Of a stretch of 64,000 bases of DNA, positions 31,860 to 51,153 are shown one piece after another. This stretch comes from Pelagibius sp. CAU 1746 (lineage in GTDB: Bacteria > Pseudomonadota > Alphaproteobacteria > Kiloniellales > Kiloniellaceae). The position numbers and the translations under genes were made by a program. The first letter of the stretch is position 1. Every line of letters starts with the position of its first letter. The notes beneath the pieces were generated by a model, which saw only the letters and a list, made by a program, of their open reading frames with translations, searched no databases and was not told the DNA's origin. The stretch covers positions 186,001 through 250,000 of the forward strand of contig NZ_JBDOQT010000001.1 in the NCBI RefSeq assembly GCF_039839785.1, read 5' to 3'.

Positions 31860-33042
31860 GGCTCTTCCCGCGGAAAGGTGTGACGGTCAGCCGCTGCTCG
31901 GACTCGACGCCGATCTCCGCGTCGGCCATGTAGCAGGCGGGATCCTCGGCCCAGGGATCGCCGGTGAGCTGCAGCGCCCGGATGCGGGTGTTGCCGCCGC
32001 AGACGTCCTGGTAGGCGCAGGCCCCGCAGCGCCCCTTGAGCGGGCGCGGACGCCGGCGGAGTTGCGCCAGCATGGGATCGCTTCCGGTCCACAGCTCGGA
32101 GAACTTGTGCTGCTTCACGTTGCCGATGGTGTAGTCCGACCAGTAGGTGTCGGGATGGACTCTGCCCTGCGGGTCGATATTGGCCACGCCGACGCCCGAG
32201 GAATTGCCGCCCCAGGCCGCCAGATGGGCGCGCAGGTGGGCGACCTTGTCGGCCGGGAACCGCCGCGCCGCCCACTGCAGGAAGTAGACGGCGTCGGCGT
32301 CGTTGTTGCCGGTCACGATCTCCAGCGGATCGCCGGCCTCGGCCGCCGTCCAGGCCCGCTCGATCAGCAGGTCCATGGCGTCGCGCGAGCGCCGCCAGCT
32401 CGCGTCGGCGCCGCGGTGCTTGTCGCCGCGGCCGGCATAGACCAGGTGCGAGAGATAGAACTTGTCGACCCCCTCGGCCTCGGTGAGGTCCAGCAGATCG
32501 GGCAGCTGGGCGCCATTGTCCTCGGTCAATGTGAAGCGCAGGCCGACCTTCACACCGCGTTCCTTGCAGGCGCGCACGCCGGCGAGGCCTTGCTCGAAGG
32601 CGCCCTCCTGGCCGCGGAACCAGTCGTTGGTGGCGCCGATGCCGTCGAGGCTGATGCCGACGTAGTCGAAACCGATCTCGGCGACGCGGTCGGCGGCTTC
32701 CCCGACGATGCGGGTGCCGTTGCTGGAAAGCGCCAGGTAGAGCTTCATCTCACGCGCCCGCGCCGCGATCTCGAAGAGATCCTTGCGGTCCAGCGGTTCG
32801 CCGCCGGAGAGGATCAGCGCCGGAATGCCGAAGGCGCCGAGATCTTCCAGCACGCCCATGGCCTGCTCATGGCTGAGCTCGCCCGGAAAGTCGACGTCGG
32901 CGGAGACGGAATAGCAGTGGCGGCAGCGCAGGTTGCAGCGCCGGGTCAGATTCCAGATCACCACCGGCTTGACCGCGCCCTTGCGGCGGCGCGGCGGCGT
33001 CGGCACCACGAGCTGGCGCATGTAGTGGGACAGACGGAACAT
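31834..33042 (-). CDS. nirJ: NirJ, radical SAM enzyme of heme d1 synthesis
   Basis: A 402-residue radical SAM protein with the cluster motif C36-N-L-R-C40-R-H-C43 and a C-terminal SPASM-like cysteine set ([15 protein letters not shown]). NirJ removes the propionate side chains of didecarboxysiroheme to form the keto groups of heme d1. ATG 33042 shares its first base with the nirH stop (TGATG), fixing the start. Confidence 0.94.
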
Positions 33043-33533
33043 CAGGCCTTCCCTTGCCGGCCGATCCTGAGGCCGGTCTTCTTGAGTATCCGGGTCGAAT
33101 AGAGAATGTCGCTTTGCCGGCAGGCCGCGCCGAGCAGGGCGGCGATCCGTCCGCGCTTCTCCTCGACCTCCTCGCGGCTTCTGCCGTGGACCATGGCGAA
33201 GAGGTTGTAGGGCCACTGCGGCAGGGCGCGGGGCCGCAGGTAGCAGTGAGAGACGAAGTCGAGATTTCCGACCTCTGCGCCGAGCTCGCTGGCGGCGGGA
33301 TCCTCGACGTCCCAGACCGACATGCCGTTGGCCACCATGCCCAGGGCATAGTGATTGGGCGCGATGCCGATACGGCGGACGACGCCGCGCGCCTGCAGGG
33401 CCGCCAGGCGGTCGATGACCTCGCGCTCCTCGAGCCCGAGCCCGGCCGCAACTTCGGCGTAGGGCGCCGGCGACAGCGGCAGGCCCGCCTGGGTCGCCTC
33501 GATGATCCGGCGTTCGGTCGCGTCGAGAGTCAT
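33042..33533 (-). CDS. nirH: NirH, siroheme decarboxylase subunit (AsnC-like)
   Basis: A 163-residue Lrp/AsnC-fold protein with an N-terminal winged helix ([12 protein letters not shown]) and a RAM-like C-terminal half containing V-S-H-C-Y-L-R-P and [10 protein letters not shown]. These histidines are in the region of the decarboxylase active site described for this family. NirD, L, G and H together convert siroheme to 12,18-didecarboxysiroheme. It overlaps nirG as ATGA. Confidence 0.88.
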
Positions 33534-33994
33534 GCCGTCACCCTGAATCCGATGAAGAACTCTTCCAGCTTGGGAAAGCGCAGCACCTCCAGGCCGGTGG
33601 CCTCCTCAATCGCCTGTGCCGCCGCCTCAATCTGCTCCGGCCGCTCCGTGGCCAGCACGAACCACATGTTGAGGGAATGCTGGCGTTCGTAGTTGTGGGC
33701 GACCTCGGCAAAGGCGTTGACCTGTTCGGCGACCGCATCGAAGCGATCCCGCGGCACCGCCATGGCGCAGAGGCAGAAGGCCCCTCCCATGGCGGCGGCA
33801 TCGATGAAGGGGCCGAAGCGGGTGATCGCGCCGCGCCGGCGCAGGTTCCCCAGCCGCGAAATCAGCTCTTCCTCCCCCAGGCCCAGCCGCGCCGCGGCTT
33901 CGGCGAAGGGCCGCGGCGACAGGGGGAAGCCCTCCTGCAGGTCGTTGATGATGCGGCGGTCCACCGCGTCGGGGCGATAGAGCGGACGTGTCAT
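33530..33994 (-). CDS. nirG: NirG-type siroheme decarboxylase subunit (AsnC-like)
   Basis: A 154-residue AsnC-fold protein, separate from the NirDL fusion, beginning M-T-R-P-L-Y. The winged helix has [11 protein letters not shown] and the RAM-like half has [14 protein letters not shown]. The histidine pattern resembles the NirD/NirG half of the decarboxylase heterodimer, in contrast to the L/H half. It is joined by ATGA overlaps to both neighbours. Confidence 0.83.
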
Positions 33995-34983
33995 GCCGCC
34001 GCTCCGGCCGAGGGCGCCACCATGGCGCCGGTCTGCTTGAAACAGCGCAGGCTGAAGAGCACCTCGTGCGGCACTCCGGCCAGGCCGGTCTCCTCGCAGG
34101 CGCGGTCGAGGACGGCGATGGCTTCCTGCCGCGAGCGCGCATGGATCATGCAGTAGAGGGTGTAGGGCCAAACCCGGCCGGCCGGGCGGCGCTGATAGCA
34201 CAGCGTCACCCCCGGCACCGCAGCCAGCATCGGACCGATCCGTTCGGCCTCTTCGGGCGGCAGGTCCCACACCACCATGGCGTTGGAGCGCCAGCCGAGC
34301 GCCCGGTGACGCAAGATCACGCCGATGCGGGAGAGGACGCCCGCCGCCGCCAGCGCGGCAATGCGCGCCAGCACCTCTTCCTCCGGCCGGTCCAGGTCGC
34401 GCGCCAAGGCGGCGAAGGGGCAAGCCACGATGGGCAGGCCGCTGGACAGTCCCTGCATGATCTCCCTGTCGCCCGGCAGCAGCACGCCCGCGTCGACGTC
34501 CTCGCGCGCCGGCGGCAGGCGCCCCGGCCCGTCGAGCGCGAAGGCGAGGCTGATATTGAAGGGACGCACCAGCGGCAGATCCAGCACCTCCAGACCGGTG
34601 CGGCGATGAATGCGGGCCAGCGTCGACTCCACGTGGTCGCGGTCCGGCCCGGTCGCCACGAACCAAATGTTCCAGTCGTTCTCCCGCAGGTAGGAGTGGT
34701 TCACGCCCGGCTCCGCCCCGATGATCTCCGCGATCTCGTCGATGCGGAATTCCGGGGCCGCCACCGCCGCCAGCGTGCTGGCCCCGGCGGTATTGGGCCG
34801 GCAGGTCGCGCCGATGCGGCTGATCGCCCCCGCCTCCGAGAGCCGGCGCAAGCGACCCAGCACCTCCTCCTCCGGTATTTCCAGACGGCGCCCGATTTCG
34901 GCGAAGGGGCGCGGGATCAAGGGAAAGTCCCTCTGCCAGCCGTCAAGCAGCGCACGGTCGAGGGCGTCGAGTATCGGGCTCAT
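33991..34983 (-). CDS. nirDL: NirD-NirL fusion, siroheme decarboxylase
   Basis: A 330-residue protein made of two AsnC-like units in one chain. The first half (about 1-155) is NirD-like (F-P-L-I-P-R-P-F-A-E-I; N-H-S-Y-L-R-E-N-D-W-N). The second half (about 165-325) is NirL-like (L-P-I-V-A-C-P-F-A; C-Y-Q-R-R-P, W-P-Y-T-L-Y-C-M-I-H). Fused NirDL proteins are known in other denitrifiers and carry out both decarboxylations. Here it coexists with separate NirG and NirH. Confidence 0.9.
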   Translation of the reverse strand: MSPILDALDRALLDGWQRDFPLIPRPFAEIGRRLEIPEEEVLGRLRRLSEAGAISRIGATCRPNTAGASTLAAVAAPEFRIDEIAEIIGAEPGVNHSYLRENDWNIWFVATGPDRDHVESTLARIHRRTGLEVLDLPLVRPFNISLAFALDGPGRLPPAREDVDAGVLLPGDREIMQGLSSGLPIVACPFAALARDLDRPEEEVLARIAALAAAGVLSRIGVILRHRALGWRSNAMVVWDLPPEEAERIGPMLAAVPGVTLCYQRRPAGRVWPYTLYCMIHARSRQEAIAVLDRACEETGLAGVPHEVLFSLRCFKQTGAMVAPSAGAAA

Positions 34984-34986
34984 GGC

Positions 34987-36156
34987 CTAAAGCCCTGTCC
35001 GATGGGCGCGCGCGGTGAAGAAGATGCCCGAAGGCGATTCGGCGGCGACCTCGCCCAGTTTCTCGAAACTGCGCGTGTCGTAGATGTCGATCCTGCCGGC
35101 GTCGCGCACCGAGACCCAGACCTCGTGCCCGCGTGGCGTGAACTCCATATGCAGAACCGCCGGTCCCGGGGTCAGCCGATGAATGACCTCGCCGGAGGGC
35201 GTGTCGATCACCTCCACGGTATCGTTGAGGGGATGGGCGAAGTTCACCCAGACCTGCTGCCCGTCCGGCCGCGCGACGGCGAAGACCGGCTGGCCGTGAA
35301 CCTTGGTGCGGCCGACCTCCTTCAGGCTGCGCGAGTCGATCCAGAGCACCTCGTGCCGGCCGACCGCAGGCAGCACGAAGCGTTCGCCCGCCAGAGCCCA
35401 GCCTTCGAGATGCGGCATCTTGTATACCGGCAGGGGATCCTCGCCGCGGCCGTAGCCGGCGAGAATGCGCCGCGGGACCGGCGGCTGCTGCCAGAGATCG
35501 AGGGCCGTCAGACCGTCCTCGCCGAACAGCCCGGCGATGTAGCGCCGCCCATCGGCGGTGATGAGCGCGTCGTAGGGATTACGGCCGATCCCCTCGACGC
35601 GGGTAATTGCCGGCGGGGTCGTCGCCGCCTCACCGCCGGAAAAGTCGGCGATCCAGGTCTCGCCCGCATCCCAGAGGGTGAAGACGAAGCGCCGGCCGGG
35701 CGCATCCACCAGCCCGATGGTTTTCGAGCCGGTCGGGATATCCGCCACCATGTCCAAAGTGGCAGCGTCGAAAACCCGCACCCCGCCCGGTTCGTAGTTC
35801 GACACCGCGACCAGGCGGCCGTCGTCGGAGATCGCTCCGCCGATGGCATTGCCCGACTGCAGCACCCGGGCGGCCAAGCTCTGGGTCAGGATGTCGACCT
35901 TGCTGAGGCCGCCGTCGCGGCCGAAGACGTAGGCGTAGCGCTCGTCCGGCGAGAAAACGACGGAAGCGTGCGACAGGTCGCCCAGCCCTTCCACGCGGCC
36001 GATGGCCGCACGGTCCGATTGGTCGACGACGAGCAGCGATCCGCTCGCCCGCTCCACCACCACGCCCAGATCGCCGGTGGCGCGCAGCGTGTCGGCCTGC
36101 GCCGCCCAAGGCAGCAGCGCCGAAACCAGGCAAAGAGCGGCCGTTAAGCGGATCAT
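34987..36156 (-). CDS. nirF: NirF, d1-type propeller protein of heme d1 synthesis
   Basis: A 389-residue protein with a signal peptide (about 1-21, ending A-A-Q-A-D) and a propeller like the d1 domain of NirS but without a cytochrome c domain. NirF binds a late heme d1 intermediate in the periplasm and is needed for its maturation with NirN. ATG 36156 overlaps the nirC stop as ATGA; an in-frame codon 12 residues upstream lies inside nirC and is unlikely to be the start. Confidence 0.92.
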   Translation of the reverse strand: MIRLTAALCLVSALLPWAAQADTLRATGDLGVVVERASGSLLVVDQSDRAAIGRVEGLGDLSHASVVFSPDERYAYVFGRDGGLSKVDILTQSLAARVLQSGNAIGGAISDDGRLVAVSNYEPGGVRVFDAATLDMVADIPTGSKTIGLVDAPGRRFVFTLWDAGETWIADFSGGEAATTPPAITRVEGIGRNPYDALITADGRRYIAGLFGEDGLTALDLWQQPPVPRRILAGYGRGEDPLPVYKMPHLEGWALAGERFVLPAVGRHEVLWIDSRSLKEVGRTKVHGQPVFAVARPDGQQVWVNFAHPLNDTVEVIDTPSGEVIHRLTPGPAVLHMEFTPRGHEVWVSVRDAGRIDIYDTRSFEKLGEVAAESPSGIFFTARAHRTGL

Positions 36157-36473
36157 CTGACGCCTCCATTCAGCAGGTAGTTGGCGATCCAACGTGCTTC
36201 CTCTTCACTGAGAAGAGGGCGCCAGGGCGGCATCGGCGTGCCCGGCACTCCGTCCAGGACGATGGCGGTCAAAGTTTCCACCGGCTTGCCCGCGAGGCTT
36301 TCCGGCCGCAGGTCCGAGCCGAGCCCGCCCTTCAGCGTCAGGCCGTGGCAGGAGCCGCAATCCTGCAGCACCAGGCGTTCCAGCTCCGCCGCCCGGCCGG
36401 GTGCGAGCTCCGCCGCCGTGGCCGGTCCCGCGGCGAGACCGAAGGCCAGCAGGAGCGGCAAGGCCTCACGCAT
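36153..36473 (-). CDS. nirC: NirC, small periplasmic cytochrome c
   Basis: A 106-residue exported monoheme cytochrome. A signal peptide runs to about residue 20 (G-P-A-T-A-A-E), the heme site is C39-G-S-C42-H43, and a methionine in G-T-P-M-P-P-W is the likely second ligand. In other cd1 systems NirC feeds electrons to NirS or takes part in d1 synthesis. It overlaps nirE by eight bases. Confidence 0.88.
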   Translation of the reverse strand: MREALPLLLAFGLAAGPATAAELAPGRAAELERLVLQDCGSCHGLTLKGGLGSDLRPESLAGKPVETLTAIVLDGVPGTPMPPWRPLLSEEEARWIANYLLNGGVR

Positions 36474-37257
36474 AGGCCGCGCCCTTCCGCGGCCTGCTGG
36501 CGAGCAAGGTCACGATCGCCTCGGGGCGGCTGCGGTAGAGAGACACCACTTCGCCGATCACGAAGAGGACCGGCCCGCGCAGCGACGCCCGCGCCGCATC
36601 CCCGGCGATCTCTCCGAGGCTGGAAACCAGCCGCCGTTCGTGGGGTGTCGTCGCGCCGGCGACCGCCATGACCGGGTGCGCGGCGGGCAAGCCCTCGCCG
36701 AGCAGCCGCCCGGCGATCTCGGCAATGGCGCCGGCCCCCATGTAGACGACGAGGGTGGTCTGCGGGTCCGCGAGCCCCGCCCAGTCGAGGTCGAGCGGGC
36801 GATCCTCGCGGCAGTGTCCGGTGACGTAGCGGACGCCGCTTGCCAAGCCGCGGTGCGTCAAGGGGACCGCGGTCGCCGCCGCCGCGCCCTGGGCCGCGGT
36901 GATGCCCGGCACGATTTCGAAGGGAATGCCGGCAGCCCTCAGGGCCGCCGCCTCTTCGGAGCCGCGGCCGAAGACCATCGGGTCGCCGCCTTTCAGGCGC
37001 ACGACCGTCAGACCCTCGGAGGCCAATTCGATCAGGATTTGATTGATCCGCTCCTGGGGCACCGGATGGGACTTCGGCGCCTTGCCCACCGGAACGAGAC
37101 GCGCCAGCGGCGGCGACAGCTCCAGCACTTCCTCCGACACCAAGCGGTCGTAGACCACGGCCTGCGCCTGGCAGAGGATGCGCGCCGCCTTCAGAGTCAG
37201 CAGCTCCGGGTCGCCCGGCCCGGCGCCCACGAGAAACACCTGACCCGGCTTCCTCAT
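36466..37257 (-). CDS. nirE: Uroporphyrinogen-III C-methyltransferase NirE
   Basis: A 263-residue SAM-dependent methyltransferase with family motifs V-G-A-G-P-G-D-P-E-L-L-T, V-V-R-L-K-G-G-D-P-M-V-F-G-R-G and the P-G-I-T-A-A segment. It makes precorrin-2, the entry to siroheme and so to heme d1. ATG 37257 is preceded by AGGAGG. It is the second gene of the operon after nirS and an intervening hairpin. No CysG-type dehydrogenase domain is present, so the oxidation step needs a gene elsewhere. Confidence 0.93.
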   Translation of the reverse strand: MRKPGQVFLVGAGPGDPELLTLKAARILCQAQAVVYDRLVSEEVLELSPPLARLVPVGKAPKSHPVPQERINQILIELASEGLTVVRLKGGDPMVFGRGSEEAAALRAAGIPFEIVPGITAAQGAAAATAVPLTHRGLASGVRYVTGHCREDRPLDLDWAGLADPQTTLVVYMGAGAIAEIAGRLLGEGLPAAHPVMAVAGATTPHERRLVSSLGEIAGDAARASLRGPVLFVIGEVVSLYRSRPEAIVTLLASRPRKGAAYA

Positions 37258-37299
37258 CGCCTCCTCCCTACCTAGGTCCCATGACAACCGCCTTGAAGG

Positions 37300-37327
37300 G
37301 GGGCGGCCATGCCTGAATGGCCGCCCC
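37300..37327. promoter_or_regulatory. Strong stem-loop between nirS and nirE
   Basis: An 11-bp perfect inverted repeat (GGGGCGGCCAT / ATGGCCGCCCC) with a six-base loop, 15 bases after the nirS stop on the minus strand. No U-run follows on the minus strand, so partial termination or protection of nirS mRNA is more likely than full termination. This would allow more NirS than cofactor-synthesis proteins. Confidence 0.75.
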
Positions 37328-37341
37328 TCCAGGGAGGCAGG

Positions 37342-41287
<3,946 letters not shown>

Positions 41288-41369: not shown

Positions 41370-42317
41370 GTGCCACCTGTGTCGAACCGAAGCCTGAGCC
41401 GGCGCCGCTTCCTGGCCATCTCGGCCGCTGCAGCAGCCTTGCCGGCCGCCGCGCGCGCCGCCCGGCCGGTCGCGCGCTGGCGCGGTGCGGCCTTGGGCGC
41501 CCAGGCCTCGATGACCCTCGTCGGGGTGCACGATGCCGAGGCGGGACAGGTCTTCGGCGCGGTCCAGGAGGAAATCGAGCGCATGGAAGGCCTCTTCAGC
41601 CTCTACCGCCCAGATTCCCTGCTGACCCGCTTGAACGCCGAGGGCCGGCTGACGGCGCCGCCCGAGGAGTTCCTCGAACTGCTCGAACTGTCGGGCCGGC
41701 TGCAGCGGGCAACCGGCGGCGCCTTCGACCCGACGATTCAGCCGCTGTGGCTGCTGCACGCCACCGCCGCGGCGGAGAACCGCCGCCCGGCGGCCGGCGA
41801 TCTCGCCCAGGCCCGCGCCCGCTGCGGCTGGCAACATCTCGAGATTTCACCGGGCGCGCTGCGCTTCACCCGGCCGGGCATGGCCCTGACCTTCAACGGA
41901 ATCGCCCAGGGATACGTGGCCGACCGCGTCGCGGCGCTGCTGCGCAGTTTCGGACTGCGGGACGTGCTGGTCGACATGGGCGAGATCGCGGCGCGGGGCC
42001 GGCGGCCGGACGGCAGTCCCTGGCGGGCCGGCATCAGCTTGCCCGGAGGCCGCATCGTCCGCGAGGTACGCCTGAGCGAACGCTGCCTGGCCACCTCCGC
42101 GCCGCTCGGTACCTTCCTCGACCCTGCGGGGCGCATCGGACACATTCTCGATCCGCGCAGCGGCGAACCCGGAGGGCGCTGGCGGCTGGTCGCCGTCTCC
42201 GCGGAGCGGGCCGCGCTCGCCGACGGTCTGTCGACCGCCTGCTGCCTGCTTTCCCGGGAAGCCATCGCCGCGGCGCTGGCCGCGCAGCCCGGCAGCTCAC
42301 TCGAAGCTCTTCACTAA
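41370..42317 (+). CDS. apbE: FAD:protein FMN transferase, ApbE family (NirX/NosX type)
   Basis: A 315-residue exported ApbE protein. The N terminus S-R-R-R-F-L-A-I-S-A-A is a twin-arginine signal. The core has the family blocks E-I-E-R-M-E-G-L-F-S-L-Y, F-N-G-I-A-Q-G-Y-V-A-D and L-V-D-M-G-E-I. ApbE covalently attaches FMN to Ser/Thr of target proteins; NirI encoded just upstream is the expected client. The start is GTG 41370 with a weak ribosome site. NirX/NosX are the names used in denitrification loci. Confidence 0.9.
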   Translation: MPPVSNRSLSRRRFLAISAAAAALPAAARAARPVARWRGAALGAQASMTLVGVHDAEAGQVFGAVQEEIERMEGLFSLYRPDSLLTRLNAEGRLTAPPEEFLELLELSGRLQRATGGAFDPTIQPLWLLHATAAAENRRPAAGDLAQARARCGWQHLEISPGALRFTRPGMALTFNGIAQGYVADRVAALLRSFGLRDVLVDMGEIAARGRRPDGSPWRAGISLPGGRIVREVRLSERCLATSAPLGTFLDPAGRIGHILDPRSGEPGGRWRLVAVSAERAALADGLSTACCLLSREAIAAALAAQPGSSLEALH

Positions 42318-42344: not shown

Positions 42345-42728
42345 ATGCGGAGACTGAAGATTACCGTCCTTGCCACCGCCCTCGCCTGTTTCGCCACTCC
42401 GGCCCTGGCCGACGGCGACGCGGAGAAGGGCGAAAAAGTCTTCAGGAAGTGCAAGGCCTGCCATGCGGTCGGCGAAGACGCCAAGAACAAGGTCGGCCCG
42501 CAGCTCAACGGCATCGTCGGCGCGACCGTCGGCATGGTCGAGGATTTCAAGTATTCCGACGCCTTCAAGGAGAAGTCGGCCGAGGGCATGGTGTGGTCCG
42601 AAGACAACCTCGATGCCTATCTGAAGAAGCCCAAGGACCTGATCCCCGGCACCAAGATGACCTTCGCCGGCCTGCGCAAGGACGACGAGCGCGAGGACGT
42701 CATCGCCTATCTCAAGCAGTTCGAATAG
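42345..42728 (+). CDS. Periplasmic class I cytochrome c (c2/c550 type)
   Basis: A 127-residue exported cytochrome with signal peptide (1-22, ending P-A-L-A-D), heme site C-K-A-C-H at about residues 36-40 and a C-terminal G-T-K-M methionine as likely ligand. The fold region matches the c2/c550 type. A good AAGGAG precedes the ATG, 27 bp after apbE. Such cytochromes carry electrons from the bc1 complex to NirS, a natural role here. It may also serve the CuA-type reductase encoded at 50207. Confidence 0.88.
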   Translation: MRRLKITVLATALACFATPALADGDAEKGEKVFRKCKACHAVGEDAKNKVGPQLNGIVGATVGMVEDFKYSDAFKEKSAEGMVWSEDNLDAYLKKPKDLIPGTKMTFAGLRKDDEREDVIAYLKQFE

Positions 42729-42771: not shown

Positions 42772-43362
42772 CTAGACGGCCAGCGCCCGGGCCAGGTGGT
42801 CGGACAGATCGAACTCGGCCGCGACCCGGGCGCGGCCCTCTGCGGACATCTTGCGGGCGGTCTTGGTGACGATCCCGGCAATCTGTCCGGCGTCGCGCCC
42901 TTCGGCGAAGTCCGCGAAGTACCAGCGCAGAAAGACGAGGCAGATGACATCTTCCAGCATCTGCACCTCCGCGTCTTGCTTCAGCCTTTCCTTACGCAGC
43001 ATCGCGGCGACCCGCCGGCAGTCGTCCGCCGCATAGCCGGCCTGCGCCATCAGCCCGGCCACCCGCTCGGCATGAAAGGCCGCCTGGGCCTTGCGCCAGG
43101 CGAGATAGCCGACGCGGCCCTCGGGATGCGAAGCGCGCGGCATCTTCCAACGCTCGATATGCTGGCCACGGGCAGCGATCTGCAGCAGCTCCGACGCCTG
43201 CGGACAGACCCGCGACAGCTCCGACGACATGCGTTGCCCGTAAAGCAAGGCGGCAGGCCCCTTCTGCGCGCCCTCGCCTTCCGCCGTCGGGTCGGCCGCG
43301 TTGGCGGCGTCGATCGCGGAGAGCACCGCTTCCAGGCGCGCGCTCACTGGGCGCGGCTCCAA
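42772..43362 (-). CDS. DUF4202 domain protein
   Basis: A 196-residue soluble protein of DUF4202, with A-I-D-A-A-N-A-x-D near the N terminus, H-I-E-R-W-K-M-P-R and M-L-E-D-V-I-C-L-V-F-L. DUF4202 genes tend to lie near sulfur or nitrogen respiration genes, but no function is established. It overlaps the end of the DNR-type regulator gene by 19 bases and is probably cotranscribed with it. The many conserved His, Asp and Glu suggest a metal site, perhaps HD-like. Confidence 0.75.
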   Translation of the reverse strand: MEPRPVSARLEAVLSAIDAANAADPTAEGEGAQKGPAALLYGQRMSSELSRVCPQASELLQIAARGQHIERWKMPRASHPEGRVGYLAWRKAQAAFHAERVAGLMAQAGYAADDCRRVAAMLRKERLKQDAEVQMLEDVICLVFLRWYFADFAEGRDAGQIAGIVTKTARKMSAEGRARVAAEFDLSDHLARALAV

Positions 43363-44051
43363 GCCATTGCAGGGTCCTCGACCACATAGGCGCGCAGCGC
43401 CGCCACGTCTGCGATGGCCGCGTGATTCTGGTTGACGGTGACCCCGACCTCCTTCAAGCGCGCAAAGGAGCGGGAGAGGCTCTCGGGCTTCATGCCCAGG
43501 CGGCCCGCGATCAGCACCTTGTCATAAGGCAAGGTAACGGCGCAGCCGCCTTCCTCGACGGGACAGAGCTCGAGCAGGAACTCGGCCACCCGCTGAGCGC
43601 CGGTGTGCGCCTTCAACTGCTCGACCTGGGCCACGAGAGCATGCAGGTGCTGGAAGGTCGAGGCGAGCATCGCCGTGCAAAGTTCCGGATGAGGCTTCAT
43701 GAGCTCCAGGATCAAGCCGGCATTCACCGGCATGGCCCGGCAGTCCGTTACAGCCTCGGCGCCGACCGGATAGACGTCGTGCCGAAAGGCCGCGGCCTCC
43801 CCGAAACTCTGGCCCTTGGTGAAGACGCCGACCACGGCCTCCGCACCGTTCTGCGAAATACGAAAGAGCTTCACCCAGCCTTCGAGCACGATATAGACGT
43901 GCTCCGCGGGCTCGCCCTGCAAGAAGATCGTCGCGCCCCGTGCGAAGGTGCGGATCTCGGTCTGGGAAAGAATGGTGTCAAGGAGCTGGTCGGGCACACT
44001 GGCCAGAAGCATCGACTCCTTGGCGATACGCCAGTCCTCGTTAGGTCGCAT
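43344..44051 (-). CDS. dnr: Crp/Fnr-family regulator, DNR/NnrR type
   Basis: A 235-residue regulator with sensor barrel, dimer helix and C-terminal winged helix. The recognition helix has E190-S-L-S193-R194, predicted to bind TTGAT/C-type half-sites like the boxes found here. There is no N-terminal four-cysteine FNR cluster (its cysteines are near 104, 125, 163 and 170). DNR-type proteins sense NO through heme. Placement between the nir and NO reductase blocks supports this assignment. It is clearly different from the Crp/Fnr protein at 214. Confidence 0.88.
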   Translation of the reverse strand: MRPNEDWRIAKESMLLASVPDQLLDTILSQTEIRTFARGATIFLQGEPAEHVYIVLEGWVKLFRISQNGAEAVVGVFTKGQSFGEAAAFRHDVYPVGAEAVTDCRAMPVNAGLILELMKPHPELCTAMLASTFQHLHALVAQVEQLKAHTGAQRVAEFLLELCPVEEGGCAVTLPYDKVLIAGRLGMKPESLSRSFARLKEVGVTVNQNHAAIADVAALRAYVVEDPAMAWSRAQ

Positions 44052-44219: not shown

Positions 44220-44627
44220 CTAGGCCTGCGGATGCGGGCCCAGGGCGCGGTGAAGCCGCGAATCGTGGACCCGGAAGTGCTCGGAAAACCAGGCCTCCAG
44301 CGTGGCCACGAGGCGGTCGATCGAAGCCTCGGGCGTGACCGCCGCGTCATCCATGAGATCGCGCAGGGCGTCCAGCAGCCGTTCGTGGTCGGCCTTGTGC
44401 TCTGAAAACGCGTCGTAGCGCGCCTCGCGCATCTGCCGCTCCTCCAACGCGAAGTGCGCCGAGATGGCGCGCAGCAGGTCGCCGAAGCCGCGCTCGACGT
44501 CGGCCTCCGGACGGCGCTCCAGGATCGCGCCGGCCGTGCGGTTCACCAGGTCGATGAGCTGGCGGTGCTCATGGTCCACCGCCGGATCGCCGACACTGTA
44601 CTCGGGCTTCCATTCGATCGGAGCCAT
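44220..44627 (-). CDS. Bacteriohemerythrin
   Basis: A 135-residue hemerythrin with the di-iron ligands in order: H19 or H21 (D-H-E-H), H58-x3-E62 (H-F-A-L-E), H77-x3-H81 (H-K-A-D-H) and H117-x4-D122 (H-F-R-V-H-D). Start ATG 44627 has GGAGG upstream. Bacteriohemerythrins bind O2 and can bind NO; as last gene of the NO reductase block it may buffer NO or O2 or help with iron repair. It follows the exported unknown by 17 bp. Confidence 0.92.
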   Translation of the reverse strand: MAPIEWKPEYSVGDPAVDHEHRQLIDLVNRTAGAILERRPEADVERGFGDLLRAISAHFALEERQMREARYDAFSEHKADHERLLDALRDLMDDAAVTPEASIDRLVATLEAWFSEHFRVHDSRLHRALGPHPQA

Positions 44628-44644
44628 GGCGGCCTCCCGTCGGC

Positions 44645-45145
44645 TCACTTGAACACAAAGCCGCCCGTTTCCGGGCGGAAATCGATGACGAAACTCTGGG
44701 CCGGAGCCAGCGTCACCTGCGTCGCGGCGGCGTAGTCGAAGTCTTTCGTTGCCGGGTTGTCGCGCAAGCGCACGGCGATGTCGTGCCGCCCCGCCGGCAA
44801 GGGGAAGCGCCGGTAGATGCGCGAGGGGCCGCTGCCGGCGATACCGCGCGCCGGCAGTTCCTCGGCCAGAACCGTGGCGCCGTCGATGTCCAGTTCGACG
44901 TAGACCGGCGGCCGGCGGCGGTCGCAGACCTTGGAGAGACGCATGTTGGGCGGCAGCTCCGCCAGCTCCTCCGGCGTCCGATCGCGGCAGTTACGCTCGC
45001 CGCTGTGGGTGAAGCTGACCCGCAGCAAGGCCGTCCCGGCGGGAAGGCTCTGCCAAGCGGGCGCCGCCGAGAGCACGGCGACGCCGAGCGACAACGCCAG
45101 CATGGTCATTCCCCCCAGCAGCAGATGATGCAAACGGCCCTTCAT
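44645..45145 (-). CDS. Exported/anchored protein of unknown function in the NO reductase block
   Basis: A 166-residue protein with an N-terminal membrane segment (about 9-28) serving as signal or anchor, followed by a beta-rich periplasmic domain. It has two cysteines spaced about 21 residues apart (R-N-C-R-D; K-V-C-D-R-R-R). I do not recognise the family. It overlaps the cytochrome b fusion gene by four bases, so it is translationally tied to it and may be a periplasmic partner of that protein. Confidence 0.7.
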   Translation of the reverse strand: MKGRLHHLLLGGMTMLALSLGVAVLSAAPAWQSLPAGTALLRVSFTHSGERNCRDRTPEELAELPPNMRLSKVCDRRRPPVYVELDIDGATVLAEELPARGIAGSGPSRIYRRFPLPAGRHDIAVRLRDNPATKDFDYAAATQVTLAPAQSFVIDFRPETGGFVFK

Positions 45146-46725
45146 TCGGCGAACTCCCGCTGGCTGCCTGCCGCACTTCTCGCCGCCTCGTCCCGGCTCA
45201 GCGGACGCACCTTGTCATAGGACGGCTGCTCGGCGAGTTGCGCGGCGAAGGCGGCGGCCTCCCGCCGCAGCCTGGCCCCTTCGCTGGGCCCGGCCCAAAT
45301 CACTTGCAGGCGTTCGCGCGGCACCCGCTCGCGCAGGAAGGGGTCGCGCTGGCGGGCGATGCGCTGGCGCATCCATTCGCCGCCCAAGCGGTTCCAGCAT
45401 TCGCGTTCCGCGCAGCCGGCGATACATACGCCGTCGGCGAGACCGCGGCTGACAATGAAATCCAGCAGCGAGGGCGGCGCCATGGCGACGCAAGGCAGGA
45501 CGATGCGGCCTGCCTCGGGCCGTCCGCCGGCGCCGTGGGCGCAGGCCAGGGTGAGAACGCGTCCCGGCCCCGACAGGCCGGCCGCCGCCTCGATCGCCTG
45601 CGCGCGCAGCTCGGCCAGGGAAAACGCCGGAAGGTCGATGCCTGTGATCAGGTCGCCCGAGCGGCGGAACGGAGTCGAGGAAGGACAGGCCCCCATGCAG
45701 ATGCCGCAGGCCACGCAGCGCTCCGCATTGACTTCCACCTCCAGCGGAAAGGGCGCGCCGTCGCTGCGCGGCACCAGGGTAATCGCCGAGTAGGGACAGT
45801 CGGCGACGCATCGTGCGCAGCCGTTGCAGTGATCCAGTGTCACCGCGGCAGCCGGCGCCTCGCGACGCGGAGGCAACCATGGCAGGCCGACCAGCACCAG
45901 AGTGAAAATCAGGGCCCCGGTCCAGATGACGCCCGCCGGCACCAATTCTATGACCGGATAGAGGCCGAGCAGGAACCAGTCGATGCCGACGCGGGCGGGC
46001 ACCGTCGCCAGGTCGGCGGGCGCCTGGGACGTCGCCGGCACCATAAACGACGCCGCGACGAGCGCGCCCAAGGTCAGCACGGAGAGACCGCGCGGCGGCT
46101 TGGTGCGGGCCTGGCTGATGCGCTGGATATGGATCCACATGACGAGCAGAAGCAGCAGCGGAATGGCGATGTGCAGGAACACCATCAGCGTGAAGAAGCG
46201 GCTGGAGAGGCTGTCCGGCGTCAGGAAATTGCGCGCGATGGGCTCGGCGAAGACCGGCAGGGCATCCAGCAGTTCGGTGGTTGTCAGGGCCACGTACTGC
46301 GCCAACTCGTCCCACACCAGCCAATAGCCGGTAATGCCCGAAAGATAGACGAACCACAGCACCGGCACACCGGTGATCCAGGAAAACCAGCGCCGCCCCC
46401 GATAGCGGTCGAAAACGAACTCGCGCAGCAGGTGGAGCAGCATTACCACGACCATGAGGTCCGAGGCGTAGCGGTGCAGGCTGCGGGCGACCCCGGCATG
46501 GAACCAGTGGTCTTCGGTCAGCCATTGCACCGAAGTATAGGCATCCACCACGCCGGTATCGAAGAAAATGAAGAGATAGATCCCCGTGCCCGCGACGATC
46601 CAGAACAGGAACCATCCCAACGACCCGAGGCTGGACAGCGGATTCCAATCGGGCCCGAACAACCGGTCGAGGCCGCGTTCGACCCGGTCGAAGCCGCGGC
46701 GCAGCGCGAAACGAAGTCCCGCCAT
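45142..46725 (-). CDS. Cytochrome b (N-terminal) - 2x[4Fe-4S] ferredoxin - MvhD/FlpD-like fusion
   Basis: A 527-residue membrane redox protein in three parts. Residues 1-210 are the N-terminal half of bc1-type cytochrome b with both heme ligand pairs, H84/H98 and H185/H199, each 14 apart. After two further membrane segments (about 213-285) come two 4Fe-4S motifs, C300-N-G-C-A-R-C-V-A-D-C-P and C337-V-A-C-G-I-C-M-G-A-C-P. Residues about 388-460 (L-P-C-V-A-M; I-A-G-C-A-E-R-E-C-W) resemble the MvhD/FlpD domain of hydrogenase/heterodisulfide reductase complexes. No Rieske or cytochrome c1 gene is adjacent. It may move electrons between quinone and a soluble carrier. It shares one base with SCO (TAATG). 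Confidence 0.82.
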   Translation of the reverse strand: MAGLRFALRRGFDRVERGLDRLFGPDWNPLSSLGSLGWFLFWIVAGTGIYLFIFFDTGVVDAYTSVQWLTEDHWFHAGVARSLHRYASDLMVVVMLLHLLREFVFDRYRGRRWFSWITGVPVLWFVYLSGITGYWLVWDELAQYVALTTTELLDALPVFAEPIARNFLTPDSLSSRFFTLMVFLHIAIPLLLLLVMWIHIQRISQARTKPPRGLSVLTLGALVAASFMVPATSQAPADLATVPARVGIDWFLLGLYPVIELVPAGVIWTGALIFTLVLVGLPWLPPRREAPAAAVTLDHCNGCARCVADCPYSAITLVPRSDGAPFPLEVEVNAERCVACGICMGACPSSTPFRRSGDLITGIDLPAFSLAELRAQAIEAAAGLSGPGRVLTLACAHGAGGRPEAGRIVLPCVAMAPPSLLDFIVSRGLADGVCIAGCAERECWNRLGGEWMRQRIARQRDPFLRERVPRERLQVIWAGPSEGARLRREAAAFAAQLAEQPSYDKVRPLSRDEAARSAAGSQREFAE

Positions 46726-47576
46726 TATGTCGCGCGCCCCGACTTGGCGAAGCGGCGATTGCCCAGCCAGAGGCGCAGGATAACGATGCCGGTGATCAGT
46801 AGCGACAGACCGCCGAAGAAGATGCCGAAAAAGATACCGTAGTCGAAGCGGTAGGCCCCGGTCAGCGGATTGTAGACCGTGCAGAGGAAGGCGACCCGGT
46901 CCCAGAGGTCGTCCGGTGCCAGGGACCGGGTGACTCTGCCCAGCACCAGGTCTTTCAAAGGTTCCATGAGCACCGGCAGCGGGAAGGTCTCGCCATAGAC
47001 CTGCCGGTAGACCCGTCCCTCGGCGTCCAGGATCGAGGTTTGGGTCACGTGATCGAAGCCGCCGGCCGCCGCCCGCCAGCTAAAGCCCAGCTCCGCCAGC
47101 AGCTCTTCCGTCGTATCGCTGTCGGCGCTGGCAAGGTGCCAGTCTTCGATGCCCTCCAGGCGGTGGGTGTTGGCGAAGGCGGCGAGCTGCGCCGGACGGT
47201 CCCGGCCGGCATCGAAGCCAAAGGTCAGAACCGCAAAGCTCCGCGGCCCCAGCGCCCGGCGCGCTTCGACGACGGCATCGCGCAGATGGTCGGTGGTGAT
47301 CGGGCAGACCGTACTGCAGCTCGTGAAGACCAGGGAGATCACGAGAGGCCGCCCGCGCAGCTCCGCCAGTGCCAGAGGCAAGCCATCTTGGTCGGTCAGC
47401 ACATGCTCCCCGACGCTGCCGCCAATCGCGGCCTGGCTGCGCTCGTAAGCGGCGCGCGCGTCCAGCTTGGGCTCGGCCGCGGGCGCCGGGGCCGCAGCGG
47501 CGAGGAACCAGACAGTCCCCGCCGCCGCCGCCAGCAAGACGCCCCCTCTCGACCGTCCCCCGTTCAGAAGGCCCAT
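46725..47576 (-). CDS. SCO1/SenC-type copper chaperone with C-terminal membrane helix
   Basis: A 283-residue protein with a signal peptide (about 12-34), a thioredoxin-like domain carrying the copper motif C-S-T-V-C in F-T-S-C-S-T-V-C-P, and the ligand histidine in G-F-D-H-V-T-Q-T. A C-terminal hydrophobic helix (about 244-268, rich in F-F-G-I) is unusual; most SCO proteins are anchored only at the N terminus. It probably builds the CuA site of the subunit II encoded at 50207. It overlaps the ctaB gene by 13 bases. Confidence 0.88.
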   Translation of the reverse strand: MGLLNGGRSRGGVLLAAAAGTVWFLAAAAPAPAAEPKLDARAAYERSQAAIGGSVGEHVLTDQDGLPLALAELRGRPLVISLVFTSCSTVCPITTDHLRDAVVEARRALGPRSFAVLTFGFDAGRDRPAQLAAFANTHRLEGIEDWHLASADSDTTEELLAELGFSWRAAAGGFDHVTQTSILDAEGRVYRQVYGETFPLPVLMEPLKDLVLGRVTRSLAPDDLWDRVAFLCTVYNPLTGAYRFDYGIFFGIFFGGLSLLITGIVILRLWLGNRRFAKSGRAT

Positions 47577-48445
47577 CGGACGCCCTCGTCCAGGATCACA
47601 CCTAGAGCGAGCAGGGCAAACTGCAGCAGCGAGGCGCGGAAGGTCGCCATCGCCAGGTGGCGGTCCGGCCGGCGCATCAGACGCCAGCTCGCCCGCAGGA
47701 AAGGCAGCCCGCCGGCCGCGGCGAAGAGCCCGTAGACCGGCCCCATGCCGAGCAAGAGCGGCAGGAAGGACAAGGCCACCAGCGCCGCCACATGGCTGAA
47801 GATGGTCGGCCCCCAGAACCCCGGCTCGGTGACCACCGGCAGCATCGGCACCCGGGCGTCGCGGTAATCTTCGCTCCGGGCGGCCGCGAGACTCCAGAAA
47901 TGCGGCGGGGTCCAGAGGAAGAGAACGGTCGCCAGAACCACCGGTATCGGGCCGATCACCGGCTCCGTCGGCGCCGCCGCCGCAGCGGCTCCGGCGAGCA
48001 CGGCGAAACTGCCCGCGGCCCCGCCGATCACCACGTTCCACACGGTGCGCTTCTTCAGCCACACGGTGTAGACGAGGCCGTAGGTCGCGGCGCCCGAGAA
48101 CACCAGAACGCTGGCCAGGGTACCGCCCACCGAGTAGGCCATGAGCAGCGAGGCGGCCAGCAGAGCGGTGAAGGTGACCGGCCAGATCGCCCCCGCCTTC
48201 AGCGTTCCCTTGGCGAAGGGGCGGTTGCGGGTGCGCCTCATGAAGCGGTCGCTGTCGCGCTCGAGGTACTGGTTGAAGGCTCCCGCCGCGCCGGAGGCTC
48301 CCAGCACCGCGACGGCGAAGACCATGGCCTCCAGCGGACCCAAGGCCGGGCCGCCGGTCAGGATTCCGATCAGCGCCGCCAGGGCCACGAAAGAACCGAT
48401 CCGCAGTTTGAGGATCGAAACGGTCATCCTGAGCGCAACGATCAT
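47564..48445 (-). CDS. ctaB: Protoheme IX farnesyltransferase (heme O synthase)
   Basis: A 293-residue UbiA-family prenyltransferase with about nine membrane segments. The prenyl-diphosphate sites are N-Q-Y-L-E-R-D-S-D-R-F-M-R-R-T-R-N-R-P and the second-loop sequence Y-R-D-A-R-V-P-M-L-P; W-T-P-P-H-F-W is the CtaB signature. It makes heme O from heme B. Its location in a nitric-oxide-reductase-type operon suggests that the oxidoreductase contains heme O or a derivative. No ctaA (heme A synthase) is in the window. Confidence 0.92.
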   Translation of the reverse strand: MIVALRMTVSILKLRIGSFVALAALIGILTGGPALGPLEAMVFAVAVLGASGAAGAFNQYLERDSDRFMRRTRNRPFAKGTLKAGAIWPVTFTALLAASLLMAYSVGGTLASVLVFSGAATYGLVYTVWLKKRTVWNVVIGGAAGSFAVLAGAAAAAAPTEPVIGPIPVVLATVLFLWTPPHFWSLAAARSEDYRDARVPMLPVVTEPGFWGPTIFSHVAALVALSFLPLLLGMGPVYGLFAAAGGLPFLRASWRLMRRPDRHLAMATFRASLLQFALLALGVILDEGVRWAF

Positions 48446-48464
48446 GGCAGGGCTCTCCCTTGTC

Positions 48465-50195
48465 TCAGTGGAACAGCCAAAGCTCGGACAGATACTTCCA
48501 GTTCACGAAGTAGTAGAGCACGAAGGCGGTGAAGAAGATGGCGACGAGGATGATCGTGCCAGGCAGCTTCAACGTGCCTTCACTGCCGTACTGCGATACC
48601 GCTTCGCGTCCCTTGTCGTGCAGCGGGAAGACGAGCTTGGCCCCCGGACGGTCGAGCCGCGGCCCCGCGAGGATCGAAGCGACGACCACAACGATGAAGA
48701 TGATTCCGCCGACGGCGGCCAGGATCGCCGAGATTCCGTTCAGCCCCATCATCAGATAGGCCCCCGGCGCGAATTCGAAGGCATGGGCCGCGTCGGTCAG
48801 GGCCATGTCCCAATGGCGGCGCGCGACGCCCAGCGTTCCCGCCCCCATCATGAAGAGCGAAATACCGCCGGCGCCGAGACCGAAGAGGTAGGGCTGCCAG
48901 CGCGCCAGCCCCGGCCATATGATGTCGCGCTGAAAGATCAGGGGCACCACCAGATAGGTCATCGCCATGAAGGCCAGCGTCGTGCCGGCGACCACCGTGC
49001 CGTGGAAATGTCCGGGGACGTAGATGGTGTTGTGCATCAGCACGTTGAGCTGTTCGGTGCCCAGCACGACACCGGAGATTCCGCCGATGAAGCCGAACAT
49101 CACCAGCGAGAGGAACATGCCGGAAAAGGCCGGATTGCCCCAGGGCGCCTTGGTCAGCCATTCGAAGGCGCCGCGCGTGAAGCCGTTGCGGCGCTGCGCC
49201 GCCTCGATCGATCCGGGCACCGTCAGGCCGTGGACCATTGATCCCATGACCGCCAGATACATCATGTAGCTGGTGTTGACGATCTTCCATGTGGAGCTCA
49301 TGCCCGGCTCGGCCAGCAGATGGTGGGCGGAGGCGAGCTGCAGGAAGAGAATGTACATGAAGAAGGCCATGCGGCTGACCTTCTCCGACAGCGGCCGCGC
49401 GCCGACGACCAGGGCGCCGATGGCGTACCAGATGGCAACATGAGCCGAGACGTTGATCTGCTGCGAAGAGTGCCCCATGCCCCACCACACGACCTTGTAC
49501 ATCAGCGAATCGATCTCGGAGACCAGACCGACCGACCACAGCCAGGTGGGGATCAGGATGATGGCGCCCGAGGCCAGGGTGAAGACCGCGATGATGCCGG
49601 CCGTGATCGCGCCGAAGGTGACCAGCGGCACCGAACCGTCATAGGTCCGCTCGGCCTTCGCCACCACCAAGGTTCCGAAGAACACCATGACGCCGATCAG
49701 CGCCCCCACCGCGAAGATGATCAGCGATAGATAGAACCACTGCGATGCCATCATCGGCGGATAGGAGGTGAACATGACGGAGGAGTCGCCGCGCAGCACC
49801 GCGTAGTTCGCCATGACCGCGCCGACGATCATCAAGATGAAGGAAAGCCAGGCGAAACGCGGCGTGGCGAGCCGCGCCCCCAGCAGCACGGCGGAAGCGA
49901 AGTAGAGCACCGCGATCTCGAAGAAGATGATCCAGAACAGCAGCACGTTGGCGCCGTGTCCGGTCAGCACGAGATAGAAGAGTTCCGCCGGCAGCAGTTG
50001 GACCGCCGGCCAGCGCGTCAGGGCCACCAGAAGGCCCATCAGCCCGCCCAGCGCCAGGAAGACCACCGCCGCCACCGCGTTCACGCGGATCAGCAGTTCT
50101 GCGTTACGTTCGACCCTCAGGCCCGTGAAGCGGCAGGTGCGATAATTGGCTTCAACGCCGGGGGCCGCGAAGGCGCCTTCTTCAATCGTGGTCAT
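48465..50195 (-). CDS. Heme-copper superfamily subunit I lacking the cross-linked Tyr; probable eNOR/sNOR-type nitric oxide reductase
   Basis: A 576-residue protein with about twelve to fourteen membrane segments. Metal ligands are conserved: H80 and H398 for the low-spin heme, H396 for the high-spin heme (V-P-G-H-F-H), and H242, H291 and H292 for CuB. At the H-P-E-V-Y position of oxidases the sequence reads H242-S-S-Q-Q246, so the active-site Tyr is Gln. Oxygen reductases of the A and B type need that Tyr, while nitric oxide reductases lack it. Denitrification context, a DNR-type box before the operon and absence of norCB in the window all support NO reduction. It follows subunit II by 11 bp. 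Confidence 0.83.
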   Translation of the reverse strand: MTTIEEGAFAAPGVEANYRTCRFTGLRVERNAELLIRVNAVAAVVFLALGGLMGLLVALTRWPAVQLLPAELFYLVLTGHGANVLLFWIIFFEIAVLYFASAVLLGARLATPRFAWLSFILMIVGAVMANYAVLRGDSSVMFTSYPPMMASQWFYLSLIIFAVGALIGVMVFFGTLVVAKAERTYDGSVPLVTFGAITAGIIAVFTLASGAIILIPTWLWSVGLVSEIDSLMYKVVWWGMGHSSQQINVSAHVAIWYAIGALVVGARPLSEKVSRMAFFMYILFLQLASAHHLLAEPGMSSTWKIVNTSYMMYLAVMGSMVHGLTVPGSIEAAQRRNGFTRGAFEWLTKAPWGNPAFSGMFLSLVMFGFIGGISGVVLGTEQLNVLMHNTIYVPGHFHGTVVAGTTLAFMAMTYLVVPLIFQRDIIWPGLARWQPYLFGLGAGGISLFMMGAGTLGVARRHWDMALTDAAHAFEFAPGAYLMMGLNGISAILAAVGGIIFIVVVVASILAGPRLDRPGAKLVFPLHDKGREAVSQYGSEGTLKLPGTIILVAIFFTAFVLYYFVNWKYLSELWLFH

Positions 50196-50206
50196 GCCCT
50201 TACCCC

Positions 50207-50761
50207 TTACTCGACGACGCGGATGCGCCCTGTCATCGTGTGATGACCGATGCCGCAGAATTCGTTGCAGATGATGCCGAAGACGCCGCTGTCAGTCGGC
50301 GTCAGCGTCAAGACGTGCTCGTAGCCCGGATGGACCGAGATATTGATGTTGGTCGGCTGCAGGGAGAAGCCGTGCTGCCAGTCCGCCGACGACAGGTGAA
50401 TGCGGTAGCTCTGTCCCTTCTGCAGCTCCAGAATCGGCCAGAACTCCCACAGGCGGGCAACGATGTAGGCATCGCCGCCGGCCGGCGGGCGCACCACCGG
50501 CACACCCTCTTCCTCCAGCGGCTGGCCGTCCGCTCCGACGGCCTGATACTCCTCGGCAAAGGCTTCAACCTTCTCCACATAACTTTCCGGCCGGATACGG
50601 TAGGTCTCGGTCGAGAGGTTCTGCTCGCCGATGAAATGCCAGGCGATCATGAAGAAGAACATGAAGAGGCCCCAGAGGAAGGCGATGATGATCCAGCCCA
50701 GCTCGGTGCCGTGGATCGGTTCCTTCCACCAGAGGCGGTTTGTCGGTGGGGTAACGGCCAT
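50207..50761 (-). CDS. Subunit II with CuA centre of the NO reductase-like complex
   Basis: A 184-residue protein with one membrane anchor (about 21-43) and a cupredoxin domain. The CuA ligands are complete: H130 (D-W-Q-H-G-F), C165, E167 (backbone), C169, H173 and M176 in C-N-E-F-C-G-I-G-H-H-T-M. An acidic, proline-containing insert sits at about 75-95. CuA takes electrons from a soluble cytochrome c or cupredoxin; the class I cytochrome c at 42345 is a candidate. NorCB enzymes use a cytochrome c subunit instead, so this is not the classical cNOR. Confidence 0.9.
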   Translation of the reverse strand: MAVTPPTNRLWWKEPIHGTELGWIIIAFLWGLFMFFFMIAWHFIGEQNLSTETYRIRPESYVEKVEAFAEEYQAVGADGQPLEEEGVPVVRPPAGGDAYIVARLWEFWPILELQKGQSYRIHLSSADWQHGFSLQPTNINISVHPGYEHVLTLTPTDSGVFGIICNEFCGIGHHTMTGRIRVVE

Positions 50762-50788
50762 GATGCTGCCTCGCGAAAAGAAATGCCG

Positions 50789-50971
50789 CTAGTTGGCTAT
50801 GGGGACGGAAGCCACCTCCATCACGCCCCAGACGATGTAGAGGACAGCGGGGATCGTGACGCCGAGGAAGAGCAGGAGGAAAGGGTTGTCGAGAACGCGT
50901 TGCATGACCGGCACCGGCTCCTGTTTCGCCGTCTCGCCGCCACCCGTTTCCGCTGTGTCGCTGTCGTTCAT
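50789..50971 (-). CDS. Small single-span membrane protein, first gene of the NO reductase block
   Basis: A 60-residue protein: a polar N-terminal half with glycines and glutamates, then one membrane helix (about 28-52; F-L-L-L-F-L-G-V). ATG 50971 is chosen because GGGGGG is at the right distance; an ATG six bases upstream would abut it. Small accessory subunits are usual in heme-copper complexes. It lies 27 bp before subunit II. Confidence 0.72.
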   Translation of the reverse strand: MNDSDTAETGGGETAKQEPVPVMQRVLDNPFLLLFLGVTIPAVLYIVWGVMEVASVPIAN

Positions 50972-51153
50972 TCTCATCCCCCCTCAGGATCAGTGTCAGG
51001 ACAGCCGCCCCCTCCGGCGAAGCGGCCGCCACGCAGCAGGCACAGGCCGCGGCGGCTACACCCGCGTCAGCGGGCGTCACGACGGGCGCCTGCAGGAGTC
51101 CGGCGTGCGATTCCAACCGCCTCTCCATTCAGGCAGGTTTCGGCCGCTTGTAA

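Follow-up and report, generated by a model that had tools for sequence, protein, structure and literature searches.

Gene content of the cassette

The window analysed here is the whole stretch of 64,000 nucleotides from Pelagibius sp. CAU 1746 (contig NZ_JBDOQT010000001.1, positions 186,001 to 250,000). Eight co-directional genes lie on its minus strand (44220-50977), with intergenic gaps that are short or overlapping according to a check of open reading frames and Pfam domains. In order of transcription, they encode a 62-aa protein, a CuA subunit II, a heme-copper subunit I, a heme O synthase, a SCO protein, a cytochrome b/ferredoxin/FlpD fusion, an exported protein and a hemerythrin (Table 1). 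An earlier note, made from the sequence alone, had described these genes as a non-canonical nitric oxide (NO) reductase operon, and all eight reading frames and domain calls were reproduced. Only gene starts had to be revised: the first gene may begin at 50977, with its second Met at 50971, and the SCO gene most likely starts at 47576.

We regard it as very probable that the operon makes an NO reductase of the eNOR family that acts with nirS, beside a qNOR encoded in the same genome. This reading predicts the activity in Pelagibius sp. CAU 1746 from a Gln in 37/37 eNOR sequences, the placement of subunit I in a tree, the linkage to nirS, a conserved promoter box and a fusion protein tied to eNOR. 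The eNOR family is already known; the available text of PMC11388526 lists it among the NO reductases that have been characterised biochemically and as related to the B-family reductases.

Related loci came from 385 evenly drawn alphaproteobacterial genomes (the draw), from further named GTDB loci (the best 80 of at least 556 confirmed matches, seven of them repeating the draw) and from other proteobacteria. The counts of distinct rows for subunit II, the small protein, SCO, the fusion, the exported protein and the box exclude the seven repeated loci. Neither the small protein nor the exported protein had a Pfam or NCBIfam match.

Table 1. Features of the cassette and its surroundings (positions within the window).
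Feature	Position	Strand	Basis
Small protein, 62 aa, one hydrophobic stretch, first cassette gene	50789..50977	-	Q26, D30 and W50 present in all 113 distinct rows
eNOR subunit II, CuA cupredoxin	50207..50761	-	COX2 PF00116 barely above cut-off; CuA ligands unchanged across 118 distinct rows
eNOR subunit I, heme-copper catalytic subunit, Gln246 at Tyr position	48465..50195	-	COX1 PF00115 5e-60; ligands; tree
Heme O synthase (CtaB/CyoE type)	47564..48445	-	UbiA PF01040; homologue on Defluviimonas plasmid carries the annotation heme o synthase
SCO copper chaperone, likely start 47576	46725..47576	-	SCO1-SenC PF02630
Cytochrome b - 2[4Fe-4S] ferredoxin - FlpD/MvhD fusion, 527 aa	45142..46725	-	Cytochrome_B, Fer4 and FlpD in one protein
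Exported or anchored beta-sandwich protein	44645..45145	-	Predicted model, pLDDT (predicted local distance difference test) 95.2; conserved Cys pair
Bacteriohemerythrin	44220..44648	-	PF01814; TIGR02481 above cut-off
FNR/DNR-type box TTGACTTTGGTCAA	51154..51167		177 bp from first ATG of cassette
Crp/Fnr-family regulator	43344..44051	-	cNMP_binding and HTH_Crp_2
DUF4202 protein, downstream of regulator	42772..43362	-	PF13875
c550-type cytochrome	42345..42728	+	NF043008 127 bits, below 240-bit cut-off
ApbE-like protein, nirX position	41370..42317	+	NF007774 81 bits, below cut-off
NosR/NirI-like membrane protein	39227..41287	+	NF046105 610 bits, below 1000-bit cut-off; Fer4_5
nirS, cytochrome cd1 nitrite reductase	37342..39282	-	Cytochrom_D1 2e-150; 50% identity to nirS as annotated in Thermus TF24
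nnrS and heme d1 genes nirN, nirJ, nirDL, nirF, nirC, nirE, plus CbiX-like open reading frame	28347..37287	-	Profiles given in the text

Active site and phylogeny of subunit I

Subunit I has the motif HSSQQ (H242 to Q246), which the earlier note had pointed out, in place of HPEVY. In a wider alignment, 37/37 eNOR rows had Gln where 8/8 A- and B-type rows had the cross-linked Tyr. B-type enzymes have this Tyr four residues after the CuB His, where the protein studied here has Q246. A Tyr could also be supplied from helix VII, as in cbb3-type enzymes, in which we take it to lie six residues before the HH pair. The residue at this position in subunit I is L285, so that no Tyr comes from there; the genome's own cbb3 has a Tyr at the same place. 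The metal ligands claimed earlier are all retained: H80, H242, H291, H292, H396 and H398 were invariant, together with Q246, in 20/20 aligned rows of subunit I, as were H130, C165, C169, H173 and M176 of subunit II in all its rows (E167 in 117). In the eNOR (L197) of Thermus thermophilus TF24, encoded near nirS on plasmid pTF24b, a Lys stands at the position equivalent to H398, a ligand of the low-spin heme.

A CuA cupredoxin subunit II is encoded immediately upstream of subunit I. The NorB-type motif HLWVEG at the CuB/FeB His was not found in subunit I, nor was NorC or a fused cytochrome c-like domain found in subunit I or the cassette. cNOR and qNOR share the reaction with eNOR, but they have a heme c or a fused cytochrome c-like domain, carry HLWVEG and form a clade of their own, whereas eNOR has a CuA subunit and lacks this motif. 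With the B-type (ba3) oxygen reductases the cassette shares the CuA subunit II and the His ligands. The nearest solved structures by profile are Thermus ba3 oxidases. These enzymes differ in their Tyr, which aligns with Q246, and in their separate clade. The eNOR family (Hemp and Gennis 2008 and Murali et al. 2024, as cited in other papers) is like the cassette in its Gln for Tyr, a CuA subunit II directly upstream, B-family kinship and frequent annotation as cytochrome oxidase. The accessible text of PMC8756737 names the Gln as the diagnostic residue of eNOR.

A tree of 53 rows (IQ-TREE, LG+C20; the partial row L053 was left out) included A-, B- and C-type oxidases and cNOR/qNOR as references. 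All 36 eNOR rows, including those of Thermus TF24 and Thermomicrobium roseum, fell on one side of a branch with a support of 91/89, which is below the program's strict mark. The A, B and c/qNOR clades were each separate at 100/99 or higher. Three heme-copper-like rows without the HH pair joined eNOR at 99/95, on long branches that the program flagged as unsafe. The phylogeny proposed in the earlier note as a check therefore groups subunit I with the Gln variants. This placement fits the relationship to the B family printed in the available part of PMC11388526. Judged by sequence, subunit I is an eNOR by the Gln criterion and does not fall among the A-, B- or C-type oxidases or the cNOR/qNOR tested.

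The cytochrome b fusion and its exported partner

The conservation of the cassette was assessed in loci with enough flanking sequence, namely 18 of 22 loci of the draw, 52 further named GTDB loci and 17 of 20 loci from other proteobacteria. The fusion and the exported protein lay beside subunit I in 18/18, 52/52 (among the best 80 of at least 556 GTDB matches) and 10/17 of these loci, and hemerythrin in 15/18, 50/52 (among the same best 80) and 0/17, respectively. The association goes beyond chance, as the partners recur in dozens of other genomes. Compared with the eNOR stretches of Thermus and Thermomicrobium, in which none of them was found, the cassette adds SCO, hemerythrin, the fusion and the exported protein. 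In SCO, all 113 distinct rows have C61, C65 and H150, numbered along the 257-aa stretch that we used. For eNOR and hemerythrin, the titles listed by a literature search appear unrelated.

The whole cassette was also found on a 165-kb Defluviimonas plasmid (L195, NZ_CP156080.1), about 10 kb from ParB and AAA-ATPase genes, and can therefore be plasmid-borne. In this copy, subunit I is 87% identical and named 'cbb3-type cytochrome c oxidase subunit I', the kind of misannotation that the earlier note had anticipated. On contig L159, binned as Saprospiraceae, we observed a 70%-identical, proteobacterial-looking eNOR, which is probably due to mis-binning or recent transfer.

The fusion was detected in 21 of the 318 alphaproteobacterial genomes searched: 20 eNOR genomes and G276. 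The G276 contig carries nirS, the exported protein, the fusion and SCO, and ends inside SCO, where eNOR would follow. Three eNOR genomes outside those 21 (G359, G364 and G370) were presumably not among the 318 drawn, because their fetched loci contain the fusion. Among eNOR genomes of other classes in which the fusion was not beside eNOR or the locus was not fetched, 17/18 have the fusion; G441 is without it. In 11 of these loci that were examined, the exported protein followed the fusion in 11/11, with nirS on the same short stretch in six and SCO in four. Thus, in proteobacteria the fusion appears to be dedicated to eNOR. We also considered whether it belongs to nirS instead. This was rejected, as nirS is not required: the alphaproteobacterial genomes G075, G286 and G364 keep eNOR with the fusion beside it (L035, L036 and L033) without a nirS match. 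A role shared by eNOR and nirS may remain, because in several genomes of other classes the fusion adjoins nirS away from eNOR. Heme-copper-like proteins of 459-477 aa without the CuB HH pair were observed at L086:1127-2557, L099:15942-17327 and L105:11490-12866, those of L086 and L105 near copies of the fusion.

H84, H98, H185, H199, D249, W250 and ten Cys residues of the fusion were invariant in 98 distinct rows, C438 was found in 97 and C443 in 96. Its four heme b His are shared with the cytochrome b of bc1/b6f complexes. D249-W250 align with E-W of the PEWY motif in Azospirillum cytochrome b, with the P lost, which gives a modified quinol-site motif. The C-terminal FlpD domain matches MvhD, a feature shared with MvhD/HdrA. 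Unlike in these systems, all parts are joined in one polypeptide, and the operon lacks genes for a Rieske protein and cytochrome c1. The structure was predicted with a pLDDT of 87.5; when 105 residues of the cytochrome b part were searched against the PDB with phmmer, nothing matched. Since the four heme ligands, the twelve Fe-S Cys and a modified quinol motif are kept, electrons plausibly cross the membrane between the quinol site and the cytosolic Fe-S centres, in a direction, with a partner and for a purpose that we can only infer. The model of the exported protein consists of one N-terminal helix and a beta sandwich, and C53 and C74 were each present in 95/96 distinct rows. Its fold matched only generic beta sandwiches (best Foldseek E 1.6e-3; best Z 9.1, covering 93 residues). 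Possible docking partners are subunit II, SCO and the fusion.

The fusion would serve eNOR either as an electron-transfer arm or as a maturation reductase. For the second role, with the fusion and its partner as maturation factors that supply reductant for CuA/SCO or heme d1 assembly rather than electrons for turnover, the chances are appreciable, if somewhat short of even. The two genes directly follow SCO here and often lie beside nirS when away from eNOR, and the Cys pair of the partner is highly conserved. NosR/NirI is thought to play a comparable role in assembly. However, a thiol reductant would not need two transmembrane hemes and three predicted Fe-S centres together with a modified quinol motif, and neither the fusion nor the partner was found in the eNOR stretches of Thermus and Thermomicrobium, whose CuA needs maturation as well. 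A more specific and rather speculative proposal is a third arm dedicated to proteobacterial eNOR. The fusion would take electrons from quinol at the modified Qo site, pass one towards the periplasmic partner and CuA, and direct the second across the b hemes to Fe-S carriers in the cytosol. In this way NO reduction would power the reduction of a cytosolic acceptor or, in reverse, a cytosolic reductant would feed eNOR without a bc1 complex. In either role, the fusion, tied to eNOR, is a testable candidate for how this enzyme is fed or matured. A literature search, which did not take in Murali et al. 2024, found no paper combining cytochrome b, FlpD, 4Fe-4S and denitrification; the fusion and exported protein may be the new part of the system.

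Linkage to nitrite reduction and the qNOR of the same genome

As the earlier note had stated, the cassette has a DNR-type box and lies near nirS. The hemerythrin gene is followed by a Crp/Fnr regulator gene and the DUF4202 gene, beyond which lie, on the plus strand, genes for a c550-type cytochrome, an ApbE-like and a NosR/NirI-like protein. Then follows a minus-strand cluster of nirS with nirE, nirC, nirF, nirDL, nirJ, nirN and nnrS, in which nirS and the heme d1 genes span 30291-39282. NirJ scored above cut-off (TIGR04051), Cytochrom_D1 was found in NirS, NirN and NirF, and NnrS, NirDL-HTH and TP_methylase were assigned by Pfam. The names nirI, nirX and nirC are ones that we presume from position and homology (nirC from position). 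The DUF4202 gene overlaps the regulator gene, and relatives occur in some other eNOR stretches (L038, L121, L141, L143, L151 and L173).

After dropping loci whose upstream sequence was too short or whose first gene could not be recognised, we found the box TTGA[CT]N4[AG]TCAA upstream of the cassette in 72/111 distinct stretches, compared with 3/2220 mononucleotide shuffles and 6/111 random places of the same loci. The Crp/Fnr regulator is a candidate reader of the box TTGACTTTGGTCAA; a related site, TTGATTCACCTCAA, lies upstream of its own gene.

Taken as an eNOR, the enzyme would receive electrons at CuA of subunit II, with the c550-type cytochrome as a candidate donor, and pass them on to the low-spin heme. 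At the heme-CuB site, which has Gln246 instead of the Tyr that is cross-linked in oxygen reductases, 2 NO would be converted to N2O. A conserved proton channel has been proposed for eNOR in the available portions of PMC8756737 and PMC8114936. Heme O synthase and SCO would provide heme and the copper of CuA, while the fusion and its exported partner would feed or mature the enzyme. The FNR/DNR regulator would switch on the cassette together with nirS, so that eNOR would remove the NO made by NirS.

Among the 385 genomes of the draw, in each of which the scans scored no more than the two or three best candidates, eNOR was found in 23 (13 families), nirS in 27 and c/qNOR in 30. nirS was present in 20/23 eNOR genomes and in 7/362 others (Fisher p 1.2e-24; 1.4e-23 without the window genome), a value that overstates independence because the sampled species are related. 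The three eNOR genomes without nirS belong to one family and all have nirK above cut-off; hence, 23/23 have nirS or nirK. Phylum-wide, 52 eNOR genomes (these 23 and 29 more) included 44 with nirS and nine with a match to the qNOR query, one of them a weak N-terminal piece. Matches in G479, G644, G675 and G688 (27-30% identity) were too weak to be counted as eNOR.

The genome of Pelagibius sp. CAU 1746 is 98.6% complete, and a search with PF00115 returned four heme-copper proteins: aa3 (HPEVY), cbb3, eNOR and qNOR. The earlier note had placed the operon 'in place of norCB' and named a complete norCB, expressed under denitrification while this operon is not, as evidence to the contrary. No cNorB was among the four matches in the whole genome, and in this respect the claim stood. 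However, a qNOR is encoded beside nosRZD, so that eNOR is not the sole NO reductase. The qNOR looks intact (793 aa, C1:2260365-2262743; NorB cytochrome c-like domain and HLWVEG). Its neighbours are NosR (825 bits, below the 1000-bit cut-off), NosZ (TIGR04244, 1132 bits, cut-off 625) and NosD (470 bits, cut-off 300). A TTGA-N6-TCAA box is present just upstream of the nosR frame.

The qNOR might therefore carry the denitrification flux and leave to eNOR the detoxification of, or tolerance to, NO. Its place near nosRZD and the hemerythrin and NnrS genes near eNOR speak for such a division, and detoxification was suggested for the Zetaproteobacterial eNOR in the available text of PMC8114936. We nevertheless consider it unlikely. 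It is eNOR that lies near nirS and has the box, whereas no TTGA-N6-TCAA box was found within 440 bases around the qNOR start, even with one mismatch. Moreover, in 16/27 nirS genomes eNOR occurs without a c/qNOR match. The other four of the 20 genomes with eNOR and nirS match the c/qNOR profile (G000, G059, G184 and G370).

Several points weigh against an eNOR acting with nirS. The presence of a qNOR means that eNOR is not necessarily the principal NO reductase of this genome. Seven of the 27 nirS genomes have no detected eNOR; five of these match c/qNOR, and two do not. The relatedness of the species inflates the p-value, scoring so few candidates may have missed nirS or c/qNOR, and nirK was counted in eNOR genomes only. 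The support for the eNOR clade is limited as noted above, and the neighbouring branches are long.

That the operon encodes a Tyr-less, B-type-derived oxygen reductase for low O2, with NO reduction as a secondary activity, is very improbable: heme-copper enzymes can have both activities, the closest solved relatives are the Thermus ba3 enzymes and the presence of aa3 and cbb3 does not preclude a third oxidase, but the Gln in every eNOR row, L285 on helix VII, a nitrite reductase in all 23 alphaproteobacterial eNOR genomes and the denitrification-type box argue against it.

Since those 16 of 27 nirS genomes contain eNOR and no c/qNOR match, surveys based on norB only would call them incomplete denitrifiers and would misjudge N2O sources among such alphaproteobacteria. 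c/qNOR matches were also seen in G181 and G276, which belong to the same family as G059. The qNOR-like protein of G059 (L108:1441-3807; C19:56245-58554) has SHNF in place of HH and LQV in place of the qNOR LEV. In the part of PMC3413370 available, a metal-ligand His replaced by Asn and a nearby Glu replaced by Gln mark putative NO dismutases (Nod). By these residues, the protein from this alphaproteobacterium with eNOR and nirS is a possible Nod.

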